NCBI GenBank assembly: GCA_900469955.1
Contig: UBYX01000016.1
Location: forward strand, 1 to 64,000
Direction: 5' to 3'
From: Hyphomicrobiales bacterium
Lineage (GTDB): Bacteria; Pseudomonadota; Alphaproteobacteria; Rhizobiales; Rhizobiaceae
DNA: 64,000 nucleotides
Shown: in pieces, positions 33,444 through 64,000 of the stretch
Layout: every line of letters begins with the position of its first letter
How positions within the stretch are numbered: position 1 is the stretch's first letter
Notes under the pieces: model-generated
Databases searched by the model: none
The model's input: only the letters and a program-made list of their open reading frames with translations
Told to the model about the DNA's origin: nothing
Program-made: the position numbers and the translations under genes

Positions 33444-33468
33444 TGGCAGGATATATCCAAACGTAAAC
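33444..33468 (+). repeat. T-DNA left border (LB1)
   Basis: A 25-bp sequence starting TGGCAGGATATAT and ending ACGTAAAC, matching the T-DNA border consensus, including the cleavage region after TGG and the GTAAAC tail. By orientation this is the left border of T-DNA1. It is 21/25 or better identical to LB2 at 54103. Confidence 0.92.
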
Positions 33469-33472
33469 TCTC

Positions 33473-33502
33473 TAACCCTAACCCTAACCCTAACCCTAAC
33501 CC
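33473..33502 (+). repeat. Telomere-like TAACCC repeat inside LB1
   Basis: Five perfect tandem TAACCC units start four bases inside LB1. On the plus strand the C-rich strand reads 5' to 3' away from the border, as at the left end of a linear chromosome. The complementary G-strand would lie near the 3' end of the transferred single strand. Confidence 0.95.
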
Positions 33503-33733
33503 TCATCGTGGCATTTGCAGGATCGGTGAAGTGCCATCTCCATCGGGTACGGGCTTTGCTTTCACACGAAGTTGTTGCAGTCACTTGTAGCTGGTGGAGG
33601 ATAAATTGAGGAGCGTGGGGATTTATATTCAGACGTCATATCATTGCGAGGAGATCGATTGCATTGCCTAACTGAAATCTACTCTGACGAAAGAGAAGAT
33701 CGAAATCGACAGTTCCTACATACGCGCCGCCAC

Positions 33734-34960
33734 TCACTCGATAGAACCCGCGCCACGGTACTTCTCGATGAACTGTACTGCGGTCATATCTGCAATTCCG
33801 AGCTTTTCAGCGTTCATTCCATCGCTCATGAAATCCCTGTCATAGACCATGCTGGCGTATACGATGAAGCCCTCGTAGCGTTTGCGGTACTTGATGGGGA
33901 AATCAGCGACGACCATCATCGCGTAGAGGGGCACCATATGGTATAGTATTTCGTCCACGACATAGGGGCCGAGAGGCTCAGGCAGATATCCGGCTCCGGG
34001 GGGTCTGCCCCTGCCATCCGCGTAAACCTTCAGATCCGCATGAGGGTTGCCAGTGTTGAGTTTCCGGCCCGTGTCGTTCTCGCACGCCTTGACGATATTG
34101 TGGGCGTTCCAGTTCATCCACTTAGGGCCTCCGAATTCAACACGCGCTTCATCCAGTTTCAGAATGACATTTCTGGCGAATGTGTTACCGACGTGATCCT
34201 TGTAGTAATCCAGTACACCGCGGCATTTATCATGGCTCAGCCCGATCAGCCCGAGCAAAGTCGGTGCCGCATGAAGTTCATAAGCGGAAGATTTACCGTA
34301 GGCTGCAAAGGGGACGGTATTCCAGATCGCGTTTGGAGACGGAAAAAGAATGCGGGTCATGATGCGATCGTCTTCGGACACGATATCAAACGGGTCCTTG
34401 GAGGCGTTTTCCTCATCGGTTCGTCTGGCATATAGGGTGAGGTTTGCCTTAGAGGCGCCGATATGGACCCTGCCGATTTCTTCGCCATCCTTCTGGACCC
34501 TGGAGCCCTGGAAAGCGGTGTTGACATCGACAAGCAGATGCGGCGACTTCTCATCGGTCTTGACCCAGCCGGCGTGTCCTAGTCCATGGATCATGTAATA
34601 GACCTGCTTCCTGTTGGTGTGCTTAAACAATTCCCGCACGGCTTCGGCTTGACCTGTCGGTAGAACGGTGTTGATGATGGCGTCTACCTTTGGCATCACC
34701 TCCGCGAGATTGCGTACGACATTAGGGCGATAGTTGCCATTGAAGTAGTCACCATAAGCCTGAAGTCCGTCTTTCTCCACATGGTTGATGAGGTCTTGCG
34801 AACGCTTGGGGTCGGTGTGGACGTAAACCTTATGTCCATCTTCGATCAAGCGGACGCTGTCAGCCGCACCGGTGTTTCCCAAGGCGTAGACGAGGACATT
34901 GTAAGCACGATTTTTTTCCTGGATCGTTACCAGATTGAAGGTGTCTTGACGTTCGGACAT
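33734..34960 (-). CDS. T-DNA opine-dehydrogenase-like protein 1 (putative opine synthase)
   Basis: About 408 residues. The N-terminal nucleotide-binding fold is variant (YALGNTGAADSVRLIEDGHK in place of the usual GxGNxA). Further marks are MIHGLGHAGW, NAIWNTVPFAAYGKSSAYE in the position of the opine-domain NPxxHP segment, and a C-terminal YLPEPLGPYVVDEILYHMVP resembling the DVPFGLVPL block of opine dehydrogenases. Such T-DNA enzymes condense an amino acid and a 2-oxo acid or sugar in the host cell. Strong divergence from Nos and Ocs means the opine cannot be named. Start context TTCACCATG is eukaryote-like. Assignment to the family is by motif pattern, not by close identity. Confidence 0.65.
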   Translation of the reverse strand: MSERQDTFNLVTIQEKNRAYNVLVYALGNTGAADSVRLIEDGHKVYVHTDPKRSQDLINHVEKDGLQAYGDYFNGNYRPNVVRNLAEVMPKVDAIINTVLPTGQAEAVRELFKHTNRKQVYYMIHGLGHAGWVKTDEKSPHLLVDVNTAFQGSRVQKDGEEIGRVHIGASKANLTLYARRTDEENASKDPFDIVSEDDRIMTRILFPSPNAIWNTVPFAAYGKSSAYELHAAPTLLGLIGLSHDKCRGVLDYYKDHVGNTFARNVILKLDEARVEFGGPKWMNWNAHNIVKACENDTGRKLNTGNPHADLKVYADGRGRPPGAGYLPEPLGPYVVDEILYHMVPLYAMMVVADFPIKYRKRYEGFIVYASMVYDRDFMSDGMNAEKLGIADMTAVQFIEKYRGAGSIE

Positions 34961-34973
34961 GGTGAATTTCGAA

Positions 34974-35143
34974 AGATGAAGATGAAGATGAAGATGAAGA
35001 GTTCAGTGGTTGTGTTGCTGGTGGATGAGGTTCTGAACCGATGTTTTTATACTCATGCTTCGGAAAGGCCGCTACACCGTTTCCGGTGAGCTGACGTGTC
35101 CGGTGAGATGCCACGTCACACTGTTCAGACGATGCCACGTCAC
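34974..35143 (-). promoter_or_regulatory. Eukaryote-type promoter and leader of the T-DNA1 opine gene
   Basis: Reading on the minus strand, three ACGT boxes lie first (35131-35143, 35109-35120, 35091-35100; core TGACGTGGCA or GACACGTCA), then a TATA box TATAAAAA at 35044-35051. The leader contains a run of four to five CTTCAT units (34974-35000). The ATG at 34960 follows about 84 bp after the TATA box. TGACG/ACGTGGC elements bind plant bZIP factors; ocs-type elements of known T-DNA promoters are of this class. Confidence 0.75.
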
Positions 35144-35524
35144 CTCGGTTGTGGGCAAATCCTGTCACGCTTTACCTTCACCCCTGGAGCGAAGTCAGGC
35201 ATCGCATCCCCGTGATTTGGCCGATTAGTGGGCACAACGCGGGCGTCCGGCATCGTAGTAATCCAACTGAAATTCGTTGCGCTGAGACCTGTATCGCAAT
35301 GATAGCTGCAGACGTTTTTTGCGTTGCTCGCCATGGCAGCTGATCAAGCTTGTTGCCGTTTCACGCTAACGGGGTTTGCACAGTAATGCGATATGTTTGC
35401 ATAGGTCATAAGGACAAGGATCAAGGTAAAATTCTATAGCCCGGATTTGATAATTGGATAAGGAAGCAAGAGCGCCTAAACTCCTGAAATCTACAAGGGA
35501 GCTATGAACCATTCCCCGCTTCAG
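35144..35524. other. 3' flank of the 582-codon T-DNA gene
   Basis: About 380 bp between the promoter of the opine gene and the stop of the 582-codon gene. No reading frame of interest was seen and no clear AATAAA signal on the minus strand. It presumably contains the end of the upstream transcript. Confidence 0.4.
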
Positions 35525-37273
35525 CTACATGACCGTGACAATGTGCCTGTAGAAATTATCCACCGTTGGGTTCCTGAAGACCTCAATCATGATTGAGCGG
35601 ATACGACGCCTGGTTTCTTCCACGGCTTCGGTATCCTCCGTCTCGTCCCCAATTTGAGCTTCGGGGTCCGGGTCGCGATCGAAAAGATCAAGAACCTCAT
35701 CGTCGAGTTTGTCATCTTCCCATTCAGCCTCCCATTCAGCGGCCTGTATCCATGCATCATCGGCAGCGGCAGCGCCGACATTTGGTGGTGGAGCGCCTGT
35801 CCCGCCCACCTGCAGCTCGATATGGTTCGGGTTCTGCGCGTTATCCTCGTCATCCTCTTCAGCGAAGCATGCAAAGCATTGGGCGATTCCACCTTTGGCG
35901 CCTTTAAGTTTTCTAGCAATGGCGCGGAGGAGTTTTGCCAGCGCAACGGCGACAGGTTTCATGACAGGCTTGAACAAAGGTCCTACGCGGTGTCCGAAAG
36001 CGCAGTTCAAGTCCGAATTCAATTTGATCATCGCCTTGCGCAATTTCGGATCGTTGAAGGCTTTCGGTCCCTTCACCAGAAGTGGGATGTAAACGGTTGG
36101 GAAGGAGAACACGACAGTGGTACCACCTTCAGAAAGGACACCCAATGTATCGTCCAAGCCGTGGCCTGGGTTTTCGGCACTGTCGATCAGCCTGTAAAGG
36201 TAATATGCTGCCCAAGTGGCATTTCCGTAGAGATTTACCGGGTTTCGGAATGTCGGACCGATAGCCATCGCCACGATCACCACGCCCAACAGGACGGCGC
36301 TCCATTTATCGAGCCGTTCAGGATTATCGTCATCGACGTCCTGTTCTCCAATGATCTTTTGCATGATGGCGATCAGTTGGCTCAGTTCGCTGGTAATGTC
36401 CGTGATCGTGGCCGCCTCTGCTTTTCCTGCGCGATACTTACTCTTCAGCGATTTGATGAACGCCCTCATATCTTCGAACGAGCGTTTCGATAGCTGTAAG
36501 CGCTGCCTGAGTGCTTCGGGATCCACGCGGCTTTCGTCATCGATATCCATCAAGCTTTCGATGGTTTTTTTAACAGCATGCCTGTTTTGCCATTTCGCAA
36601 ATTCCCTCCGGCCGATGAGAGCCGCGACAACGGCTGCACCGGCGCCGCCGCTGATGTAGTTGTACTCACTGGTTCCATAGAATTCCGGATGGATAAGTGC
36701 ATAGTGATAAACGGCCATTCCCGGAGCCGATCGAGCAAGCCTGTCCAAGGCTTTTTCGCGAACTTGACGGTGGTTGGCGGATCCCTGGAACAGCTGGTTG
36801 AGGAAGATGGAAATGCTGCGTTCAATTGTTGGAGCCACAGCGGGCGCGAGCGAGGTGTCGGGGCCTTTGAGACAGAGATAAGCATGCCATCCGAGTTGCG
36901 GGTAGATGATGGATCCCCAGAAAACCCTTCCAGCAATGGAAAGGCCGTTTCCTTCGATGGCCGATAGGTCTCCCATGATGATGTTGCCGTGCTTCGTCAG
37001 AGCCTCTTGGAGACCTTTGGGGTTACGTTCTTGGCGTGTCTCTTCGAGAAGGCTCTTAAGCTGGTCGGCTAGGCGGTGGTGTGCGTAGACTTCGGATTTG
37101 TCGGCATTGATGAGCGTCCCTTTGAAGCTGATCAGCGCCTTGTGCAAGTCGCCGCCGTTGCGAGAAAAGGCGTCATCGAAGATGGTCAGGAACCCTAACA
37201 ATTCTTTGATGATTGATACCGGGGACAAAGCGTCGGGGAGGGCTGCGAAATTTCCTGAAAAATCTAACTCCAT
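35525..37273 (-). CDS. T-DNA1 protein of unknown function (582 aa)
   Basis: About 582 residues from MELDFSGNFAAL. I do not recognise a family. The N-terminal half is mixed helical. There are two hydrophobic stretches, GGAGAAVVAALIG near residue 225 and KWSAVLLGVVIVAMAIG near residue 330, and a basic segment LAKLLRAIARKLKGAKGG near 460. The last 110 residues are strongly acidic (EWEAEWEDDKLDDEVLDLFD). The coding frame also stays open upstream to 37420, but the ATG at 37273 follows the eukaryote-style promoter. It shares a bidirectional promoter with the 105-codon gene. Size and composition suggest an effector-like protein, but this is only inference. Confidence 0.7.
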   Translation of the reverse strand: MELDFSGNFAALPDALSPVSIIKELLGFLTIFDDAFSRNGGDLHKALISFKGTLINADKSEVYAHHRLADQLKSLLEETRQERNPKGLQEALTKHGNIIMGDLSAIEGNGLSIAGRVFWGSIIYPQLGWHAYLCLKGPDTSLAPAVAPTIERSISIFLNQLFQGSANHRQVREKALDRLARSAPGMAVYHYALIHPEFYGTSEYNYISGGAGAAVVAALIGRREFAKWQNRHAVKKTIESLMDIDDESRVDPEALRQRLQLSKRSFEDMRAFIKSLKSKYRAGKAEAATITDITSELSQLIAIMQKIIGEQDVDDDNPERLDKWSAVLLGVVIVAMAIGPTFRNPVNLYGNATWAAYYLYRLIDSAENPGHGLDDTLGVLSEGGTTVVFSFPTVYIPLLVKGPKAFNDPKLRKAMIKLNSDLNCAFGHRVGPLFKPVMKPVAVALAKLLRAIARKLKGAKGGIAQCFACFAEEDDEDNAQNPNHIELQVGGTGAPPPNVGAAAADDAWIQAAEWEAEWEDDKLDDEVLDLFDRDPDPEAQIGDETEDTEAVEETRRRIRSIMIEVFRNPTVDNFYRHIVTVM

Positions 37274-37426
37274 GATGGCGGTTCTGTGTCGAGTGCAATT
37301 GAAGTCCAAGTTCAGAAGTTGGTTTGGATGATTGAATGATCTGGAATTGAGGAAGCTATTTGTACTGGCAAGTTCGGTGTGCCGGATAAGTTGGCATGGA
37401 CCAGGTCTATTGTTTGTCATGCAGAC

Positions 37427-37662
37427 ATTTTATGACGCGACGCCGAGGACGCCGAAAGGAGCGGTAATATCCACATCTTGCGCCTGGCGATGACGTGGCA
37501 GCTGAAAAGTGGTCCGGTTCCGGGCGCGGGAGATGAGGCATTAATTCGTCGTATCGCATCCGGTAATGATATCCGTGCGATGACGTGGCAGAACCGATGA
37601 CGTGTCGTGATGACGTGGCAGCTGAAAAGATTTAAACGAGTTTCCCGAGGTGAGGTATAAAA
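37427..37662. promoter_or_regulatory. Bidirectional ACGT-box promoter of T-DNA1
   Basis: Four ACGT boxes lie between two divergent genes: TGACGTGGCA at 37491-37500, 37581-37590 and 37611-37620, and TGACGTGTCG at 37598-37607. Two of them are part of a longer exact repeat beginning GATGACGTGGCAGCT. A TATA box TATAAAA at 37656-37662 serves the plus-strand gene. A weaker minus-strand CATAAAAT at 37427-37434 may serve the 582-codon gene. Confidence 0.75.
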
Positions 37663-37745
37663 TCCTCATTTCCCTCTATCCTCGGGTCAGTACTGCACCT
37701 CACTTTTCAAATTCAACAAAAACAATCATCGTCTTCCCAAGCAAC

Positions 37746-38063
37746 ATGGCTGCATTTTTCAAACCCGAGATCATCGAGATCGGCGACGGTTATCGTGTTC
37801 TCAACATCCTTGACCACGATCTTCCCCGCGCTGGCGAAATTCAGCAGAAGGTTGTTGGCTACAACGAGGGAGCCGTTGTCATCATTCACCCCTTTTCGAC
37901 CCAGCAGCAGTTGTCGGACAAAACCCAGCTTGTCGACGCGGGACAGAAGTTCCTGATCTCCGACAACAATACCAAGATCCTTTACCGGGGAACTACGACA
38001 ATCATGCCTGCTGGAACGACTGCCACGCAGGCTTGCGACAAGGTCAAGGAGCTGGCCGGCTAG
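37746..38063 (+). CDS. T-DNA1 small protein of unknown function (105 aa)
   Basis: About 105 residues from MAAFFKPEIIEIGDGY. I recognise no family. It is predicted to be alpha/beta with a hydrophobic core, no signal peptide or membrane helix, and it ends KVKELAG. The start context AACATGGC is close to the plant optimum, and a TATA box lies 84-90 bp upstream. The leader is rich in CAA (TTCAACAAAAACAATCATCG). It shares its promoter region with the divergent 582-codon gene. Confidence 0.75.
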   Translation: MAAFFKPEIIEIGDGYRVLNILDHDLPRAGEIQQKVVGYNEGAVVIIHPFSTQQQLSDKTQLVDAGQKFLISDNNTKILYRGTTTIMPAGTTATQACDKVKELAG

Positions 38064-38464
38064 ACTTCCTTCGCGAAGACCTGAAGTATGCGAAGCGCCG
38101 CCATTTGATCTTGTTACGGCGCAGATGTGGATTTCTAAAGATGATATAGTCGGAGGAAATACCTCATGCCAATATGATACCGCTCTTCCGGTGCATGGAG
38201 GAATTCGATGTGCTGGTCCATTGGAGCTGCAAGGGCGGAGGAGCTCCAGCAGGCTTAGAACATTCGATCTGGTAGGATGGGCGGTCTGATTTTCTTCAGG
38301 GGAGGCAGAAGCGGTAGCGGTCCATACACTCATTTAAATCGTCAGGGTCCAAATTTGGCCCCTGCTTAAATCCCGCATTTGTTGTCGCATAACGATTGTG
38401 ATTGGTGAACTTGTAATGGCCAACGTCTGTGGGTGCCTTCGTAGGAGGTCTCGCGGACAATCAA
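38064..38464. other. 3' flank of the 105-codon gene
   Basis: About 400 bp between the small gene and the telomere-like repeat at the right border. No further gene was seen. The longest frames here are antisense to the 105-codon gene and lack eukaryotic or bacterial start signals. Confidence 0.4.
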
Positions 38465-38490
38465 GGGTTAGGGTTAGGTTAGGGTTAGGT
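38465..38490 (+). repeat. Telomere-like GGGTTA repeat inside RB1
   Basis: Four GGGTTA-type units, one shortened to GGTTA, end one base before RB1. They are in the orientation opposite to the repeat at LB1. T-DNA1 thus reads 5'-(TAACCC)n ... (GGGTTA)n-3', like a chromosome with telomeres. Confidence 0.93.
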
Positions 38491-38491
38491 T

Positions 38492-38516
38492 TGTCAGGAT
38501 ATATGGAGGAGTGTTA
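38492..38516 (+). repeat. T-DNA right border (RB1)
   Basis: A 25-bp direct repeat of LB1 starting TGTCAGGATATAT. The 12 bases CAGGATATATGG keep the core, but the tail is GTGTTA rather than GTAAAC. By orientation this is the right border, where VirD1/D2 processing starts. An overdrive-like stretch follows it outside the T-DNA. Confidence 0.85.
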
Positions 38517-38545
38517 TAAGTGTGTGAATAAATTCATGTATCTGT

Positions 38546-38568
38546 TAAATTGTCTATATGTTTGTTAG
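38546..38568 (+). promoter_or_regulatory. Overdrive-like element beside RB1
   Basis: The sequence TAAATTGTCTATATGTTTGT continuing TAG lies 30 bp outside RB1. It resembles the overdrive consensus (TAARTYNCTGTRT then TGTTTGTTTG) with a short gap and a few mismatches. Overdrive binds VirC1 and boosts T-strand formation at right borders. Its position on the outer side supports naming this end the right border. Confidence 0.5.
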
Positions 38569-38691
38569 ATTGTTTATATGTTCGAAAGTTAGTGAGAAAA
38601 TCATTCCTCTTCCTGCGGGTTAAGCCGCGACATGATATTCTTCGCAAGGCATCCCCAACTTCGCCTTGTTTTAAAAGGTTGCGTCGGATAT

Positions 38692-39609: not shown

Positions 39610-39791
39610 GGTATAGCTTCCCGATATAATCTGTAAGAAAAAATCGTATTGGACGTCATACCGGGAGAATTTTACTCTGGTCAATGATTAGCGCGATAAG
39701 TTTTCGTCAGCGATCCGTCAATAATCGCTATTTCATGAGGCGACAACCAGATCCATTGCCCGACCTGGTGCGTGGCCTGCAGGGAACCCCA

Positions 39792-40097
39792 ATGTTGAAA
39801 AGCCTATTTGATGCGTCCGATCGGCCACCCGATATGACAGTTTTCGTAAATGGCGTGGAAATTCCGGCGTGGGAAGGCGAGACGGTGGCGGGCGTGATGC
39901 TGAGGTTACCAGAATCCTGCCGTGCTTCCACGGTCGGGGGTGTCCCACGACTTCCTTACTGCCAGATGGGTGTCTGCTTCGAGTGTCTCGTCATTGTTGA
40001 TGGAGTAGCTTCGAGCCAAGGTTGCCTGGTGCAGGTGAGCCCAAGCATGCGTATCAACAGTCAGCATGGGCGGAGAGAAATTTCATATGATCTATGA
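39792..40097 (+). CDS. Small 2Fe-2S subunit of opine oxidase-like enzyme (HcnA type)
   Basis: About 101 residues. A ferredoxin-like fold with MTVFVNGVEIPAWEGETVAG and the cysteine set PYCQMGVCFECLVIVDG then QGCLVQV. It matches the small subunit of hydrogen cyanide synthase and octopine/nopaline oxidase-like complexes. AGGGA lies six bases before ATG 39792; earlier ATGs at 39684 and 39735 are less well placed. Its last codons overlap the start of the alpha-subunit gene, so the two are translationally coupled. Confidence 0.85.
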   Translation: MLKSLFDASDRPPDMTVFVNGVEIPAWEGETVAGVMLRLPESCRASTVGGVPRLPYCQMGVCFECLVIVDGVASSQGCLVQVSPSMRINSQHGRREISYDL

Positions 40098-41475
40098 TGT
40101 TGCGGTTGTCGGTTGCGGTCCATCCGGCATGGCGGCTGCAGTTAAACTCAAGAACTTCGGGCTATCTGTTTTGCTCGTTGATGAGCAGCCGGCGCCAGGC
40201 GGCCAAATTTGGCGCGGAATTGAACGCAATGCATCCATAATGTCGAGTGCTTCCCTGTCGGCTCTTGGCGCGGATTATCAGGCGGGCATGTCTTCAGTTC
40301 GGGAATTTCGGGCGGCCAATGTCGACTATCTTCCGTCTACGCAGGTTTGGCAGATAGAAGGCGACTGGACGTTGTTCCTTACGAGTGCGGGCCGAGCAAG
40401 GCGAATTTCGGCACGTGCTGTTCTTCTTGCTACAGGGGCTCAGGAAAGACCTGCGCCATTTGCGGGATGGACTTTGCCCGGCGTCATGACGGTCGGCGCG
40501 GCACAGATCCTTATGAAGTCCGGGGACATGCTACCGAAGGGGCGTATATGGATTGCAGGGTCAGGGCCGCTTCCACTTCTTTATGCCACGCAACTTCTCA
40601 AACGAGGCAAATCGATCTCAGGTTATCTCGATACTTCTCCAGGCCTTGATTTCTCGGCTATCGGAAAGCTTGTCGGCGGATGGAGAAACGTCCCGCAATT
40701 GATCAAGGGCATCGGGTGGCAATGGGGAATGCGTCGCAAAAACCTGCTTCATTGGAAGGTTCAGGGGCTAGCGGCGCAGGGTAACGAACGGCTTGAACAC
40801 ATATCATGGATGGAAAACAGCGAACTCAAATCAGCAGCTGCGGACGTGTTATTGGTTCATGAGGGCGTGGTGCCACGTATTCACGAAACCTTAGCATTGG
40901 GCTGCGAGCACCGATGGAACGACGCGCAGCGATATCTCGCCCCGGCTCTTAGCAAGATGAGGGAAACCAGCCGCATCGGTTTATTTGTTGCCGGCGATGC
41001 CGGCGGGATCGGTGGCTGGGTTGCCGCGGAAGCTTCCGGGGAGATTGCCGCGATCGGAATAGCCGCTCGACTAGGGGCCATAAGCGACGTCGACGGAATA
41101 ATACGCCAGGCGCATCTGCGTCAGCGTCAGGCACGGGCCCTTGCGCTGCGTCCTTTTCTGGACGCCGTCTACCCGCCTCCACGACACGACATTGAAGGTG
41201 ACGTAATGGTGTGTCGATGCGAGGAGGTGACGGCATCTACGGTGAAGACTGCAGCAGATTATTCAGGACCGGACATGAATGCAGTGAAGGCGGCGACCCG
41301 TTGCGGCATGGGACCCTGCCAAGGCAGGCAATGTGGCTATACCGTGCAGTCAATCATATCTAAGGCATCAGGTCAGTCACCTGAGAAATTGGGATTTTAT
41401 AACATCAGACCGCCTTTCAAACCGGTAACTCTAGGGGAGCTTGCTTTGATGGAAGCAGGCAACATGCCTAATTGA
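40087..41475 (+). CDS. Opine oxidase subunit A / HcnB-like FAD protein
   Basis: About 462 residues. The N-terminal FAD motif DVAVVGCGPSGMAAAVKLKN is followed by a second nucleotide site (GRIWIAGSGPLPLLYATQLL). The C-terminal BFD-like 2Fe-2S domain has VMVCRCEEVTAST and TRCGMGPCQGRQCG. This is the alpha subunit of octopine/nopaline oxidases and of HcnB. The normally adjacent beta subunit gene is missing here; the best candidate is at 20748-21887, on the other side of T-DNA1. Start at ATG 40087, after GGAGAG. Confidence 0.85.
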   Translation: MIYDVAVVGCGPSGMAAAVKLKNFGLSVLLVDEQPAPGGQIWRGIERNASIMSSASLSALGADYQAGMSSVREFRAANVDYLPSTQVWQIEGDWTLFLTSAGRARRISARAVLLATGAQERPAPFAGWTLPGVMTVGAAQILMKSGDMLPKGRIWIAGSGPLPLLYATQLLKRGKSISGYLDTSPGLDFSAIGKLVGGWRNVPQLIKGIGWQWGMRRKNLLHWKVQGLAAQGNERLEHISWMENSELKSAAADVLLVHEGVVPRIHETLALGCEHRWNDAQRYLAPALSKMRETSRIGLFVAGDAGGIGGWVAAEASGEIAAIGIAARLGAISDVDGIIRQAHLRQRQARALALRPFLDAVYPPPRHDIEGDVMVCRCEEVTASTVKTAADYSGPDMNAVKAATRCGMGPCQGRQCGYTVQSIISKASGQSPEKLGFYNIRPPFKPVTLGELALMEAGNMPN

Positions 41476-54102: not shown

Positions 54103-54127
54103 TGGCAGGATATATTGAAACGTAAAC
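54103..54127 (+). repeat. T-DNA left border (LB2)
   Basis: A 25-bp repeat starting TGGCAGGATATAT and ending ACGTAAAC. It differs from LB1 only in the short variable middle segment. Same orientation as LB1, RB1 and LB3. Confidence 0.92.
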
Positions 54128-54128
54128 T

Positions 54129-54176
54129 CCCTAACCCTAACCCTAACCCTAACCCTAACCCTAACCCTAACTCTAA
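54129..54176 (+). repeat. Telomere-like CCCTAA repeat inside LB2
   Basis: Seven perfect CCCTAA units plus one degenerate (CTCTAA) begin one base after LB2. Same repeat and same orientation as at LB1. It is the longest such tract in the window. Confidence 0.95.
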
Positions 54177-54195
54177 CTACCAGTTGAAAAACAGC

Positions 54196-55077: not shown

Positions 55078-56448
55078 ATGGCGCCCTTTTCTACCGCGGA
55101 GCTTGCAAATTGGGTCGCAAAATACCCGCGCATCCGTACTATTGAAGCCAAGACCCTCGCTATAAATGGGCTTCGCGACGTAATTGGCTGCATGCTAGCC
55201 GGTGCAAACGAACGTGTCGTCCTTTCAGCTATCGAGGTATCAGAGATGCTTGGCAGGGGAAATACAAGCGCCGTTGGTCAGACTGCTACCTTTCAACTGG
55301 ACTGGGCCGCATGTTTGAACGCCGTTGCCGGTCACGCACACGATTTCGATGATAGCTTCGACCCACTCACTGGGCATCCATCGGTCACGATCGCTTCGGC
55401 ACTCATACCTCTCTCGGTGACATTAGACGAGACGGGCGAGGACATGATTGATGCTTACGTCGTTGGCTTGCAGGTCGCAGCCTGCTTAGGAAAAATTTCC
55501 AACCCTAGTCATGTCATGCGAGGTTGGCACGCTACCATGACTATTGGAACTATAGCTACAGCGGCAGCCTGTGCACGACTTTTAAGGCTTGATCCGAAAG
55601 CGGTTGCAACCGCGATAAGTTACGCGGTCAGCAAGAGTTCTGGTACCTGCATGCAAATCGGATGGGACGCAAAGGCGATGCAAGCGGGCTTTGCGGCACA
55701 GCACGGTTTACAGTCTGCAGTGATGGCTAACGCGGGACTTGAAGCGAATACTGAGCCGTTGCTGGGCGATCGAGGTTTTTTTTCATTGTATACCTCTCAC
55801 GACGGCTCCACAAAGGAGGTAAATCTTCCGCAGCACGACTCGTCCTTGGCGATCAACGAGCCTGGGCTCACGTTCAAGCCTTACCCTACCTCCGGTAGCT
55901 CACACCGCAGCATTGCAGCTATGCTAGAGCTCCGTCGGAGACACAATATCAGAGCAGACGAGGTCGCCGACGTTCAGATCACCGTGCCTCAGCTAAATGT
56001 CAACAATCTTAAATACACAAGACCAAAGACAGGCACCGAGGGGAAGTTCAGCATGCACTATACCTGCGCAGTTGCGCTTGTCTATGGTTCAGTTAGTCTT
56101 GCTGACTTCGAGAAGGGAGCTGTTTTTCGGCCAGAGGTGCAAGCAATAATGGAGCGTATCAGGATGGGGGCATCACCGGGCTCGGACAAGGAAGAATATC
56201 TTGCGCAGCCTGCAAGGGCTCGAATTACGCTTAAGGATGGAAAGAAGTATGAAGACATCCGATTTCACAGGGATGGCTCGCGTTCCGCGCCGATGACGGC
56301 TCAGGCCGCTGAGAATAAATTCTTTGCCTGTGCCGAACGACAGTTTACGCGCGAACATTGTGTGAAAATCTTAGGTCTCATAAATGGATTAGGCAGCGGT
56401 TCTAAAGTTAAACGCTTGAGTGCCGCACTAGCTGGCGCTGATGATTAG
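55078..56448 (+). CDS. MmgE/PrpD-family enzyme in T-DNA2
   Basis: About 456 residues of complete MmgE/PrpD fold. Family marks: GHAHDFDDSFDPLTGHPSVT (acid cluster and His), GWHATMTIGTIATAAACARL, SYAVSKSSGTCMQIGWDAKA (substrate Lys/His region) and TFKPYPTSGSSHRSIAAML. Relatives include 2-methylcitrate dehydratase, cis-aconitate decarboxylase (itaconate forming) and iminodisuccinate epimerase, so the reaction could be a dehydration, decarboxylation or epimerisation of a carboxylic acid. The start context CCAATGGCG is typical of plants, and there is no bacterial ribosome-binding site. It is unusual cargo for a T-DNA. Confidence 0.85.
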   Translation: MAPFSTAELANWVAKYPRIRTIEAKTLAINGLRDVIGCMLAGANERVVLSAIEVSEMLGRGNTSAVGQTATFQLDWAACLNAVAGHAHDFDDSFDPLTGHPSVTIASALIPLSVTLDETGEDMIDAYVVGLQVAACLGKISNPSHVMRGWHATMTIGTIATAAACARLLRLDPKAVATAISYAVSKSSGTCMQIGWDAKAMQAGFAAQHGLQSAVMANAGLEANTEPLLGDRGFFSLYTSHDGSTKEVNLPQHDSSLAINEPGLTFKPYPTSGSSHRSIAAMLELRRRHNIRADEVADVQITVPQLNVNNLKYTRPKTGTEGKFSMHYTCAVALVYGSVSLADFEKGAVFRPEVQAIMERIRMGASPGSDKEEYLAQPARARITLKDGKKYEDIRFHRDGSRSAPMTAQAAENKFFACAERQFTREHCVKILGLINGLGSGSKVKRLSAALAGADD

Positions 56449-58077: not shown

Positions 58078-58102
58078 TTGCAGGATATATGCAGATGTAA
58101 AC
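58078..58102 (+). repeat. T-DNA left border (LB3)
   Basis: Starts TTGCAGGATATATGC and ends TGTAAAC. The border core and GTAAAC tail are intact. Genes with eukaryotic signals start right after it. A weak stretch of CTAACCTACGCC type follows, perhaps a decayed telomere-like repeat. Confidence 0.88.
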
Positions 58103-60018: not shown

Positions 60019-61071
60019 TTAACCCTTAAGCCCCCTCTTAGTCTTATTCCAATTTGTATCCTCCAATGCCCTACTTGCCTTTGCAGAATAACGTTTTATT
60101 ACTGAGTTGTCTCGGGCTTTTGGCTTGGTATGATCGCGCTGCCGTTTCAGTTGAAGCAGAGCCTCGGATCCCACTGGCGGGCCGAAGCTCTCCTCCAGTG
60201 ACTTGAGAGTGGCGGGTGACTGATCACCAAAAAAGATCGAGCAGCCCGTTGGTGCGTTGAAGATCCCGCCTAATTTTTTGACCTCCTCCTTCTGCTTGAA
60301 GCGGGTGAGGAACGCCAGACGTGGAATTGGTGGCCCCAACTTCGAAATCAAGTCTTTCAGTATGGCGACAGGAATTTCTCCAGGGAAATAGGCGATTTCC
60401 TTCTTTGGTTCATTCAGAGTAGTGATGGTTCCCCCACGGAGAATGACGTAGACACGCTGCTCCGGGTTCATGTTGAACGCACGACAGATCCGGTCCTCGT
60501 CCTCCTTCGGAACAGGAGCGCCGAGCCTGTTGGATACCACGAAAAAGGCTGCCTTCGTTAGCTCGCCGGGAAAACGGGCCTTTTTGTTTTCGCTGTCGTA
60601 GATGCCGTTGTGGGTGGTGATAAAGTGCTGCTGATCCGGGCTGGCGAGAAAGGTGAGGTTGGTTCTTCCTTTCTTGTCCGGAATGGCAGGGGGCTTAACC
60701 GGCTCCCCCCATTTACGGCAATAGGCGGCAAACTGCTTCTTACTGATATGTTCGGTAAATACCGCGCTGTGGGATGCGGTGTCGTACCATGCACCTTTAT
60801 TGATGGCCTCCTTCTTGTGGAGGGGCTCGACCTTGAAGCAGCAGTTGACCTTGTTGTTCTGGTACGAGGTCTCCTGCTCCTGCGAGAGCTTGAAGGCTGC
60901 CTTCTTGGTCTTCTTGGTCTTCTTCCCAGAACCTTCCCTATCCGCGATCTCCCTGCTCGTAGATGGCGCCAAAGGATCAGACGAATTTGCCGCTTTGGCG
61001 GTGGCGACTGACGCCTTACGCTTGGCTACGGCCGCTGAAGGAGAAGCTGTCTTAGTCTCGGCGTCGGACAT
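60019..61071 (-). CDS. T-DNA3 protein with four DUF5710-like repeats (350 aa)
   Basis: About 350 residues. The first 65 are low complexity, with the strongly basic GSGKKTKKTKKAAFK that resembles a nuclear localisation signal. Four repeats of about 50-58 residues follow (about 68-126, 132-190, 200-250, 252-302). Each has a pattern like KKEAINKGAWYDTASHSAVF or KEEVKKLGGIFNAPTGCSIF and ends in a short GxPV motif (WGEPVKPP, LGAPVPKE, LGPPIPRL, FGPPVGSE). They recall DUF5710-type modules found in plasmid primase and toxin-like proteins. The tail is again basic. Function unknown; nucleic-acid contact is an inference. Confidence 0.7.
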   Translation of the reverse strand: MSDAETKTASPSAAVAKRKASVATAKAANSSDPLAPSTSREIADREGSGKKTKKTKKAAFKLSQEQETSYQNNKVNCCFKVEPLHKKEAINKGAWYDTASHSAVFTEHISKKQFAAYCRKWGEPVKPPAIPDKKGRTNLTFLASPDQQHFITTHNGIYDSENKKARFPGELTKAAFFVVSNRLGAPVPKEDEDRICRAFNMNPEQRVYVILRGGTITTLNEPKKEIAYFPGEIPVAILKDLISKLGPPIPRLAFLTRFKQKEEVKKLGGIFNAPTGCSIFFGDQSPATLKSLEESFGPPVGSEALLQLKRQRDHTKPKARDNSVIKRYSAKASRALEDTNWNKTKRGLKG

Positions 61072-61723: not shown

Positions 61724-62953
61724 CTAACAACGCCTTCCGGGGAGGCTCGGGGGCAAGACACGAATGACCGAAAACTTTTGGCCAAGTTTCGGCGCACCGA
61801 AGTACTCTCGGATCTCTTCCACCGTCGCTTTCTCGGAAAGGCCATAGAAGGCTAGAGTGCGCCCCGTCTTGAAGTAGTCCTCGCCATTCATCAGGGAACA
61901 ATCTCGAATGATGCGCTCGATGACGGTCGTATCATAGTCGATCGCCTTGGCGATCGACCACTCGAGAACGTTGACGATCTTGCAATCTTGCGTGACCATC
62001 CTGTTTTTGGTGGAGGGGGGGAGTTGAGGTTTGCGGTTCAGCGGCTCGTTTCCGATCGCGGTCTCCCGGAAATTAGGAAACTTGGTTCCATAATCGCCGT
62101 TCAACGTGTCGTTCAGATCTTCAACGATGACGACGCCAAGCTTGGCGTAGAGGCCACGCCTCCAACCGTCAACCTCAAGGATACGATTGGAGGTGAGCGG
62201 GTCGCCCATGACATCGCGATAAAGGAACGCTGGAACCTGCTTGTTGATCAGGTGACGCGCATCTCGGACAGCCGAAGGGTGGAGACTGCCATGGTTGTTG
62301 ACATGCAGCACGTTGAGGACGTTGCCATAGTATTCGTAGCGAACCCCGTGGCAGAGGGCCATCAAACGAAGCTGTTCTCCATCGGCATCTGGGTAGCTGG
62401 CGCCAACGACACGCTCCTTCCGCCCGTTCAAACGGACCTTGATGCCATCCTCCTTGACCTCGATGCGGCAGGTGTTGCGCGCGCGCGAAGTCTCAAAGGT
62501 GATGAGAGGCTGCAAGATCCGATGGGCCTTGGGAGCGATACCATTGCCGCTGACCCATTCCATGATGAGGTTTCCGAACAGATGTTTGTACGGCTCGAGA
62601 TATGCGAGGATTTCCTCATCCGCGTCGGAGCCTGCCGGAATGACCATCACATCGCAATGGCGGCAGAAGGCTTCCACGTCATCTTCGATATCCACCTTGA
62701 ACAGGGTGTCGAAGTCAGAGTTCGGGGTGTAAATCCCGATCTCCTTCTGCGTACCTGCCTTGGCGGAATATCCCGGATGATTAGGGAGAGCATGGATCTT
62801 CACGATCTCGTCCGTGCGGACGTTCCACTGTCCAGCTTCCGTGAAGGAAACATGTCCGGCGGTCAAGTATCCGATCTTCGGCAGTTTGCCCGTCCACAGA
62901 GTGGGTGGAGTAACCGGCGTCAGATTGAGTGGATTGACTACGTGGGAAGACAT
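61724..62953 (-). CDS. T-DNA3 opine-dehydrogenase-like protein 2 (putative opine synthase)
   Basis: About 409 residues. The N-terminal fold is divergent (LPKIGYLTAGHVSFTEAGQW). Family-like elements are VMVIPAGSDADEEILAYL, the segment ITFETSRARNTCRIEVKEDG, which resembles the ETxxxPYACR region of Nos and Ocs, VVGASYPDADG and NVLHVNNHGSLHPSAVRDAR, corresponding to the NPxxHP segment. The usual GxGNxA is not evident, so cofactor use may differ. It is distinct from the T-DNA1 protein, suggesting a second opine. The start context is CACGAAAATG. Confidence 0.6.
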   Translation of the reverse strand: MSSHVVNPLNLTPVTPPTLWTGKLPKIGYLTAGHVSFTEAGQWNVRTDEIVKIHALPNHPGYSAKAGTQKEIGIYTPNSDFDTLFKVDIEDDVEAFCRHCDVMVIPAGSDADEEILAYLEPYKHLFGNLIMEWVSGNGIAPKAHRILQPLITFETSRARNTCRIEVKEDGIKVRLNGRKERVVGASYPDADGEQLRLMALCHGVRYEYYGNVLNVLHVNNHGSLHPSAVRDARHLINKQVPAFLYRDVMGDPLTSNRILEVDGWRRGLYAKLGVVIVEDLNDTLNGDYGTKFPNFRETAIGNEPLNRKPQLPPSTKNRMVTQDCKIVNVLEWSIAKAIDYDTTVIERIIRDCSLMNGEDYFKTGRTLAFYGLSEKATVEEIREYFGAPKLGQKFSVIRVLPPSLPGRRC

Positions 62954-63629: not shown

Positions 63630-64000
63630 ATGGATATCGAGATCCAAGGTCGCTCGCCCTTCGGCCGAAGCTGGCTTCACAAGCCATGGTTCCGCTTCTG
63701 GAGGGCGGTGCACCACCACTGGCTCCTGTCCTTCCTGGCAGGCCCCATGTGGTACAGCGTTTTGGAACTCGATCCCAAGGAGGAGAAGGAATGCCTTTCT
63801 TCGTTCCAAGGTGATGCAACGATCGGTACCGGGTCCGCTGTTCTCAGACAGGCACTGCGCCTGGATGCGGACGCGACCCTTCCCGCTACCTTCGAAGCTG
63901 CTCTTGGGGCCCTCATCAACGTTTTTCCGCTTTCGGACGACCGCCGCCGCAAAACGGCGCAGGAAATCCGTGCCCTTCGGGAAACAACCTTCCGAGGCAA
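63630..64000 (+). CDS. T-DNA3 unknown protein, partial (3' end outside window)
   Basis: An open frame of at least 123 codons starts MDIEIQGRSPFGRSWLHKPW at ATG 63630 and runs off the window with no stop. No family is recognised. It has an aromatic, basic N terminus (WFRFWRAVHHHWLLSF) and then an Ala-rich helical region (DADATLPATFEAALGALINV). The plant-style promoter and CAA-rich leader just upstream, and the clean frame, make it a real gene. Confidence 0.65.
   Translation, partial: MDIEIQGRSPFGRSWLHKPWFRFWRAVHHHWLLSFLAGPMWYSVLELDPKEEKECLSSFQGDATIGTGSAVLRQALRLDADATLPATFEAALGALINVFPLSDDRRRKTAQEIRALRETTFRG

Follow-up and report, generated by a model that had tools for sequence, protein, structure and literature searches.

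Why would a bacterial T-DNA carry telomere-like repeats at its ends? In a 64,000-nucleotide stretch of a Hyphomicrobiales genome (hereafter the window), a first-pass annotation had described such repeats at both ends of one element, T-DNA1, laid out as in a linear eukaryotic chromosome. Both observations hold, and the layout extends to three T-DNAs of this genome and to six other records, three of which have it at the left end only. In our reading, these elements form a previously unrecognised T-DNA class that targets fungi, and their arrays are predicted to serve as telomere seeds, capping either a linear molecule or a terminal insertion.

Telomere-like arrays in the source genome

The genome contains three T-DNAs, two of which lie wholly or partly within the window (Table 1), and all six T-DNA ends (6/6) bear TTAGGG arrays with chromosome-end polarity. 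The first-pass annotation lacked T-DNA2 (at 54103) with its left array, its right border with array, which lies outside the window (C61:65662-65684), and the third T-DNA (T3), which is located on contig C65, has arrays at both ends and has CAGGATGTAT and CGGGATATAT as its border sequences. A 14-base telomere pattern, GGGTTAGGGTTAGG, has 15 matches in the 5,789,460-base genome, every one of them inside the six end arrays, and the reversed-pattern control gave 0 matches in the whole genome. Within the window, TTAGGGTTAGGG with at most one mismatch occurs 14 times, always at borders (14/14), against a shuffling expectation of 0.04 and a maximum of 1 in any of 100 shuffles. The G-rich strand of the T-DNA1 left array is directed to the left border, with 25 nt between the predicted nick and the array; the corresponding distances are about 5 nt for the T-DNA1 right array and 23 nt for the T-DNA2 left array. 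The internal border-like site of T-DNA2 is homologous to the left end of T-DNA3 of AFS068226.

Table 1. Features of T-DNA1, T-DNA2 and the adjoining DNA in the window
Feature	Positions	Strand	Remarks
Left border of T-DNA1 (LB1), TGGCAGGATATATCCAAACGTAAA	33444..33467	+	0 mismatches to border consensus
Left telomere array of T-DNA1, (CTAACC)5.3	33472..33503	-	begins four bases inside LB1
T-DNA1 gene, 408 aa, weakly opine-dehydrogenase-like	33734..34960	-	hhalign
T-DNA1 gene, 581 aa, putative membrane protein	35525..37270	-	membrane nature judged by eye
T-DNA1 gene, 105 aa, AGCAACATGGCT start context	37746..38063	+	no Pfam match
GGGTTA-type telomere array at the right end of T-DNA1, with one unit shortened	38464..38491	+	abuts RB1
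Right border of T-DNA1 (RB1)	38492..38515	+	3 mismatches to consensus; equivalent place in AFS068226
2Fe-2S protein and FAD oxidoreductase, opine-oxidase-like pair, outside T-DNA	39684..41475	+	role inferred
Left border of T-DNA2	54103..54126	+	0 mismatches to consensus
Left telomere array of T-DNA2, (CCCTAA)8.2	54129..54177	-	just inside left border
T-DNA2 gene, MmgE/PrpD family, AACCAATGGC start context	55078..56448	+	PF03972 4.7e-46
Internal border-like site in T-DNA2, then degenerate repeats only	58078..58101	+	1 mismatch
T-DNA2 gene, 350 aa, without assigned family	60019..61071	-	
T-DNA2 gene, octopine/nopaline dehydrogenase family	61724..62953	-	PF02317 5e-9
T-DNA2 gene start, 599 aa, continues to C61:65429	63630..64000	+	kin of pTiC58 T-DNA ORF

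Recurrence of the border-array unit

The unit of border plus array is present in six further records, namely AFS068226, Rhizobium terrae, R. etli, Mesorhizobium GbtcB19 and two finished Agrobacterium fabrum plasmids, which makes seven carrier records from at least three named genera (Rhizobium, Mesorhizobium and Agrobacterium), including three finished plasmids. An assembly artefact, which the first-pass annotation had named as a possible refutation, can be ruled out because the left-end arrangement is seen in these three finished circular plasmids of other strains. Free variation of the repeats between isolates, named there as well, applies to copy number, which differs among ends and isolates, and not to position and polarity, which are constant. 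Arrays are absent from all 12 vir plasmids used as controls, which together have 40 border matches.

Across the carriers, left ends are tipped in 8 of 9 cases and right ends in 6 of 9, with arrays of 18-108 bp. Outward arrays at both ends are found in source T1, T2 and T3 and in GbtcB19, where the right array was joined across two contigs by inference; R. etli and both A. fabrum plasmids have an array at the left end and none at the right, the T1 right array of AFS068226 is degenerate, and the T3 left end of AFS068226 has no array. The distance between the repeats and the predicted nick is 0-6 nt where right ends are tipped; left ends have 17-27 nt, made up of border and spacer, on the outer side of the repeats. 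Borders are paired in direct orientation and match the consensus in the T-DNAs examined (RB1 with 3 mismatches); the two borders of R. terrae are on separate contigs, and a stricter border pattern was not matched there. Source T1 and AFS068226 T1 agree at 96% over 4.8 kb and have unlike left parts, and the unit of left border and array has been retained at the left end despite exchange of the neighbouring DNA, while an internally placed copy has decayed.

Chance was rejected as the source of such units; a pattern search returned 60 stretches, of which only 3 have CAGGATATAT followed by at least four tandem units, and a further stretch, L042 from Peptostreptococcus, shows two units after CAGGATATAT. 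Matches were found in 4 of 57 members of the source genus, one of them (G026) chance-like with two units, in 2 of 394 members of a family sample without G023 and G076 (the source genome and G026), and in 1 of 119 members of the genus of GbtcB19, which was GbtcB19 itself. When the whole of T-DNA1 was compared with plasmids, the only match was 60 bases of left border and array in R. etli; by BLAST, the GbtcB19 left end had no match in plasmids and the A. fabrum left end matched the two A. fabrum plasmids only. Plant-type TTTAGGG arrays at borders, which the patterns permitted, do not occur among the matches listed. Two sequenced A. fabrum strains have an array-bearing vir plasmid, and one of the two, 1D132, has a separate Ti plasmid on record.

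Transfer machinery and gene content

The tipped T-DNAs share their genome or plasmid with vir genes. Specifically, VirD2-type relaxase genes are present in 7/7 carriers, and in the carriers tested VirC1 (E 7.5e-119 or better) and the relaxase were each found in 5/5; R. etli has virB-type genes as annotated, and A. fabrum has VirD4 and a relaxase by tblastn. The source VirD2 falls under the NCBIfam cut-off, its match being confined to residues 3-177, and a Pfam search for VirE2 gave no match, with its controls likewise silent. Opine-synthase-like T-DNA genes occur in 4 of 6 distinct carriers (source, AFS068226, R. terrae and GbtcB19), with homology reaching 55%; no such gene was recognisable in the T-DNAs of R. 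etli and A. fabrum. Across 10 T-DNA stretches, some of them incomplete, ipt and iaaH had no match and rolB a single weak one of 39 aa in A. fabrum (E 0.006). A gene resembling tryptophan 2-monooxygenase occurs in R. etli.

In T-DNA1, the gene for the 408-aa protein has a CT-rich leader, a TATA-like box and an TTCACCATG start, and hhalign of its product with the octopine/nopaline dehydrogenase profile gave E 5e-4, probability 31.5 and 15% identity. This protein is 97% identical to the AFS068226 copy, the only homologue that a search retrieved, with no fungal protein; tblastn in plasmids gave no match, and its AlphaFold model (pLDDT 31.5) was left unused. The 581-aa protein retrieved solely its own cluster of 2 members from a 5.77-billion-protein database (7,998 scored candidates, none fungal) and matches an A. 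fabrum T-DNA protein at 22% (E 4e-18); profile comparison did not join the differing membrane-like proteins of the T-DNAs into one family. In T-DNA2, the MmgE/PrpD-family protein has IDS-epimerase as its best PDB match (8.3e-45), the octopine/nopaline dehydrogenase-family product matches octopine synthase at 21% (E 5e-11), and the 599-aa protein matches a pTiC58 T-DNA ORF at 36% over 365 aa (E 2e-66). Oxidase-like and transport genes adjoin T1 and T2 of the source genome, and the putative opine-oxidase-like pair matches PF13510 (5.7e-18), PF07992 (6.5e-18) and PF04324 (1.2e-7).

Like the T-DNAs of Ti and Ri plasmids (Agrobacterium, Rhizobium rhizogenes), these systems have 25-bp-type borders as direct repeats, VirD2-type relaxase, VirC1, VirD4 and VirB genes, and opine-synthase homologues of the mas1', mas2', ags, acs and ocs types. 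They differ from them in their TTAGGG end arrays, in lacking matches to ipt and iaaH, with rolB matched just once, over 39 residues, and in their C-richer start contexts and the bolete homologues of one gene.

Pointers to the host

For one T-DNA gene of GbtcB19, the protein sets of two Boletaceae contain close homologues, at 65% and 57%, compared with at most 29% among the 12 top-ranked of 128 plasmid records, and the bolete homologues form one group with T-DNA proteins. The two boletes are Boletus reticuloceps (JVT61DRAFT_9925, on a contig of 391,557 bases) and Butyriboletus roseoflavus (J3R82DRAFT_11606, on a contig of 2,576,528 bases). Fungal matches were obtained for only 1 of 3 T-DNA proteins searched, and the bolete homologues, known as proteins, may reflect contamination, the other direction of transfer or a deeper history. 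Judged from their sequences, the T-DNA start-codon contexts appear partly fungus-like: they are C-rich at -2 (16/23 vs 9/32, p 0.003) and at -4 (13/23 vs 7/32, p 0.012, which fails correction for six tests), with no significant difference for A at -3 or for C at -1, -5 or +5, and start contexts of Neurospora and Cryptococcus are reported as C-enriched at -1, -2 and -5 (PMC7049704). GC3 is 0.62 in the T-DNA genes here and 0.51 in Ti T-DNA genes, but ten bacterial genes here have nearby values (0.53-0.64), which makes it a poor guide to the host. The first-pass annotation had listed animals, fungi and Asparagales plants as users of this repeat; the bolete homologues of one T-DNA gene and the partly fungus-like start contexts narrow the candidate hosts towards fungi.

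Proposed telomere seeding and its alternatives

Our preferred reading, which we hold to be fairly probable, is that these T-DNAs, mostly with opine-synthase-like genes, are sent by VirD2 and VirB-D4 into fungi, with arrays predicted to be capping telomere seeds. VirD2 nicks the bottom strand, and the T-strand would therefore read 5'-VirD2-(CCCTAA)n...(TTAGGG)n-border remnant-3'. Trimming of a few 3' bases and synthesis of the second strand would allow telomerase and telomere proteins of the host to recognise the array ends, and a two-array T-DNA would persist as a linear minichromosome. If only the left array is present, the VirD2 end may join a host break, and the left border would become the new chromosome end. 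The fungus would then make opines usable by the bacterium. Counted against capping are the shortness of the arrays, the border bases outside the left array, and the several ends that are untipped or degenerate.

Among engineered systems, plasmids that carry paired telomeres replicate in filamentous fungi in the form of minichromosomes and disappear without selection, as described in PMC7451986. The two-array T-DNAs resemble these pTEL laboratory vectors in their pair of telomere arrays, and the linear state in which pTEL DNA ends up in the fungal nucleus (PMC7451986) is predicted here; unlike pTEL, which is man-made and put into protoplasts, they are natural, bordered and short in their arrays, and the R. 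etli and A. fabrum T-DNAs further differ in not being arrayed at both ends. Plant truncation T-DNAs likewise bear telomere repeats and, delivered by Agrobacterium, are described as forming new telomeres (PMC8521072), but theirs are engineered, Arabidopsis-type and 0.35 kb long, whereas the arrays here are evolved, of TTAGGG type, 18-108 bp long and at one or both ends.

It is rather unlikely that the arrays instead steer the T-DNA by homology into host telomeres or telomere-like DNA, in the manner of herpesviruses. HHV-6 (PMC4887096), HHV-7 and Marek's disease virus also have TTAGGG arrays at the ends of mobile DNA, efficient HHV-6A integration is described as needing them (PMC4887096), and the single G-rich 3' end of the R. 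etli and A. fabrum elements could anneal to a host telomere. However, the HHV-6 arrays that serve host-telomere insertion sit in direct repeats, an arrangement that lets one array join the chromosome while its partner forms the new terminus (PMC4887096), whereas the arrays of these bacterial T-DNAs are inverted, without the shared orientation of herpesvirus-type integrators. With both arrays pointing outward, an exchange at the host telomere would trade one tip for another and leave the T-DNA uninserted. Of the roles that the first-pass annotation had offered, end stabilisation or telomere seeding fits best, and telomere steering fits worse because of this outward polarity.

TTAGGG also occurs in Asparagales plants, invertebrates and protists, and capping as proposed could have these as its main hosts, which we regard as unlikely. 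Some carriers were isolated from walnut, Prunus or bean, and TGACGTGKC, which we take to be a bZIP-type motif, is dense in source T1 and T2 (17 in 16.6 kb, compared with a single occurrence in bacterial DNA of about 122 kb). Nevertheless, among 8 T-DNA stretches this motif is found only in source T1, source T2 and AFS068226 T1 and is missing from source T3 and the R. etli, A. fabrum, R. terrae and GbtcB19 T-DNAs; the bolete homologues, the fungus-like C at -2 and -4, and the oncogene search with its lone rolB match likewise argue against such hosts. It is very unlikely that the arrays have no telomere role and guard the T-strand physically, with at least four G runs at its 3' end forming a G-quadruplex, or help the bacterium to process the borders: the left arrays, at the T-strand 3' end, are the more constant ones and have at least four G runs where present, but this leaves unexplained both the exact TTAGGG units and the C-rich 5' arrays that stop at or near the nick at right ends, and the 12 control plasmids manage without arrays. 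Least of all do we credit a passenger sequence, copied once from a host and carried without function, since for all the variation in copy number and the untipped right ends and one left end, most ends, across three or more genera, carry an outward-pointing array at the border, and the arrays are kept when flanks change and decayed when internal.

Implications

Agrobacterium transforms fungi in vitro (PMC4818910), and we found no natural T-DNA system fitted to fungi in the open-licence PMC literature. Given the chromosome-like ends and the bolete homologues, these bacteria likely pass to fungi DNA that is predicted to act as a small chromosome. More tentatively, and with rather less confidence than we place in our preferred reading, rhizobia may have evolved a bacterium-to-fungus transfer in which the T-DNA is a ready-made, two-telomere linear minichromosome, the natural counterpart of pTEL, with fungi becoming opine producers and a fossil T-DNA left in boletes. 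If true, fungi in soils and mycorrhizal settings would be subject to genetic colonisation by bacteria, T-DNA could exist as an artificial-chromosome-like molecule, and natural T-DNA fossils would be expected in fungal genomes. The arrays would also offer a compact natural test of minimum telomere seed length, and a design hint for fungal vectors.

Telomere-like arrays at the T-DNA ends

The first-pass annotation had proposed that the T-DNA T1 carries telomere-like repeats just inside both of its borders, laid out as at chromosome ends, and these are indeed present, with a 4-base gap at the left border and none at the right. The borders of T2 also carry arrays, and contig C65 of the same genome holds a third T-DNA, T3, with arrays at both ends. 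Each of the three T-DNAs, followed from left to right border, runs (CCCTAA)n ... (GGGTTA)n. The pattern GGGTTAGGGTTAGG occurs 15 times in the whole genome, every time inside one of the six T-DNA end arrays, and its reversed-pattern control does not occur anywhere in that genome. Border-like sites without arrays exist as well, and short tandem repeats just outside right borders may be overdrive-like enhancers.

Coordinates of borders, associated repeats and genes (C61, contig continuing past the window end; L099, vir locus of this genome; L107, left-end record of GbtcB19; L111 and L112, A. fabrum plasmid stretches)
Feature	Location	Strand	Remarks
T1 left border	window 33444-33467		after the gap, (CTAACC)5.3
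T1 right border	window 38492-38515		GGGTTA-type array directly on inner side
T2 left border	window 54103		(CCCTAA)8.2
T2 right border	C61:65684		about four repeat units
Border-like site	window 58078		no array
Border-like site, A. fabrum	L111:10612 (= L112:2628)		no array
Short repeats outside right border	window 38543-38582
Short repeats outside right border	L111 after 24669
TGACGTGKC motifs, T1 and T2	window 33467-38491; window 54126 to C61:65685		17 occurrences
599-aa protein of T2	C61:63630-65429		36% identity to uncharacterised pTiC58 T-DNA ORF
498-aa protein	L099:313-1806	-	beside virD4/virD2
339-aa protein	L099:2267-3283	-	beside virD4/virD2
Further telomere blocks, GbtcB19	L107:6340-6500		inside left array, short spacers between
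CAGGATATATCCTGATGTAA, pRL7	NC_008382 44856, 47698, 53243
CAGGATATATCCTGATGTAA, pRRI128_4	NZ_CP088117		five sites

Recurrence and conservation

In a pattern scan covering 84,980 species genomes, 60 stretches matched, and three of these, in Mesorhizobium sp. GbtcB19, Rhizobiales bacterium AFS068226 and Rhizobium terrae NAU-18, combine a border core with at least 4 tandem units; plasmid BLAST added R. etli 8C-3 pRsp8C3a and the Agrobacterium fabrum plasmids pAt3 (Kin001) and pAt1D132b. AFS068226 and R. terrae belong to the same genus group as the genome studied here. In this genome, AFS068226, R. terrae, GbtcB19 and R. etli (plasmid only), every listed GGGTTAGGGTTAG match is either no more than about 150 bases from a border or at a contig end next to one, as GbtcB19 C68:1 presumably is. 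Contigs of the AFS068226 and GbtcB19 draft assemblies break at arrays, as would be expected of such repeats; the additional blocks in the GbtcB19 left array are subtelomere-like. The vir plasmids of A. fabrum 1D132 (pAt1D132b, NZ_CP033025) and Kin001 (pAt3, NZ_CP048563) each bear a left-tipped T-DNA of their own, and 1D132 has a Ti plasmid as well.

With A. fabrum entered once, 9 left and 9 right ends could be compared. An array is present at 8 of the left ends, AFS068226 T3 being the exception, and the distance between predicted nick and array start is 17 to 27 nt. Six right ends have arrays of at least 3 units, shortened units included (our T1, T2 and T3, R. terrae, and AFS068226 T3 and GbtcB19, the last two each as a presumed join of two contigs); that of AFS068226 T1 is degenerate, and those of R. 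etli and A. fabrum lack an array. The R. terrae ends lie on separate contigs and are assumed to belong to one T-DNA. Judged by eye, 0 to 6 nt separate tipped right arrays from the predicted nick. In our T3 the repeat continues up to the nick itself.

Our T1 and AFS068226 T1 share 96% identity across 4.8 kb and differ in their left parts (~0.2 kb vs 3.85 kb), and the left end of both consists of border and array (90% over 59 bp). In AFS068226 T3, an array lying 1.8 kb inward of the left border is decayed. The array is kept at the border, and the copy away from it has decayed.

Telomere-like triplets (TTAGG to TTAGGGN types) were absent throughout 12 control vir plasmids (pTiC58, pTi1D132, pTiS4, pRi1724, pRi2659, pTiBo542, pTiCFBP4996, pTi1D1609, pRL7, octopine Ti, pTiQ15/94 and pRRI128_4) and were found by the same test in all three positive plasmids. 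The controls have 40 border matches, by a pattern that was absent from pRi2659 and also from R. terrae, where the border sequences depart from it. On the ordinary rhizobial plasmids pRL7 and pRRI128_4, one identical border-like sequence, CAGGATATATCCTGATGTAA, is repeated without telomere arrays, and these plasmids possibly represent a further unrecognised T-DNA group.

Cargo and vir machinery

T2 encodes octopine-dehydrogenase family and MmgE/PrpD proteins, agrocinopine-synthase-like GDPD proteins occur in our T3, AFS068226 and GbtcB19, and R. terrae has SIS and SDR types. GbtcB19 also has homologues, at 41, 52 and 55%, of what we take to be mas2', mas1' and ags (the control record carries domain names). 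The nearest PDB entry to the R. etli T-DNA amine oxidase is tryptophan 2-monooxygenase, and no opine-type gene was recognised in the A. fabrum T-DNA. Searches of the T-DNAs for ipt and iaaH gave no match, and that for rolB a single 39-residue match in A. fabrum (E 0.006). T1 and T2 are flanked by opine-oxidase-like and transport genes, which we infer use the opines of these T-DNAs. The motif TGACGTGKC, present 17 times in our T1 and T2 together, occurs 7 times in AFS068226 T1 but once in ~122 kb of bacterial DNA.

In all five genomes or records tested, a VirD2-type relaxase gene lies at most 2 kb from VirC1 (E 7.5e-119 or better). Annotated genes of the R. etli plasmid include VirB, VirC, VirD and regulator types, tblastn of A. 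fabrum recovered VirD4 (75%) and a relaxase (50%, query coverage 28%), and one pAt3 gene is annotated as VirE2 family. The VirD2 of our genome matches the VirD2 model over residues 3-177 only. The 498-aa and 339-aa proteins beside it, which have no match in Pfam or NCBIfam, are possible transferred effectors or a VirE2 stand-in.

Evidence on the host

TTAGGG is the telomere repeat of many fungi. A search with the GbtcB19 GDPD protein, scoring the 7,998 candidates with most words in common, found 11 proteins, two of them from Boletaceae: Boletus reticuloceps (65%, query coverage 83%) and Butyriboletus roseoflavus (57%, query coverage 80%), known here from protein sequences alone. Among plasmids, the best-ranked 12 of 128 records reach 29%. 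The bolete pair forms one clade (100/100) within a group containing T-DNA proteins and separate from two pTiC58 proteins. The Boletus model (655 residues) aligns over residues 95-423 and the Butyriboletus model is short, as expected if copies decay. P0004-P0007, P0012 and P0013 fall in the same group, P0004 being 77% identical to the Boletus protein, and their sequences suggest more such T-DNAs. Searches with two further T-DNA proteins, those of 581 aa (7,998 candidates scored) and 408 aa from our T1, yielded no fungal match.

We also compared start contexts at 23 ATG starts (of 28 genes) of tipped T-DNAs with 32 (of 34) of Ti/Ri T-DNAs, with six uncorrected tests. C is more frequent at −2 (16/23 vs 9/32, p 0.003) and −4 (13/23 vs 7/32, p 0.012); in Neurospora and Cryptococcus, C enrichment is described at −1, −2 and −5 (PMC7049704). 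The remaining positions did not differ significantly.

Proposed mechanism

Given general T-DNA biology, C-rich repeats would lie at the VirD2 end of the T-strand and G-rich repeats near its 3′ end, which is how a natural chromosome is polarised. In filamentous fungi, plasmids of the pTEL type, which have a telomere pair, are maintained as linear minichromosomes and disappear in the absence of selection (PMC7451986). Linear telomere plasmids are functional in Histoplasma and Emergomyces (PMC13410962), and engineered telomere-repeat T-DNAs truncate plant chromosomes via new telomere formation (PMC8521072). Insertion of the herpesvirus type is believed to work through arrays in direct repeats (PMC4887096), whereas the arrays here are not so arranged. 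We therefore favour end capping, in which the arrays would seed telomeres at the T-DNA ends; all steps that follow bacterial export are inferred.

In the openly licensed literature we found no description of a natural T-DNA with telomere repeats. The available text of a Ti plasmid survey that includes strain 1D132 gives only pTi1D132 for that strain and contains no telomer- words (PMC8756689). By its borders and vir genes the system, whose cargo is mostly of opine type, is T-DNA, and a new form of it.
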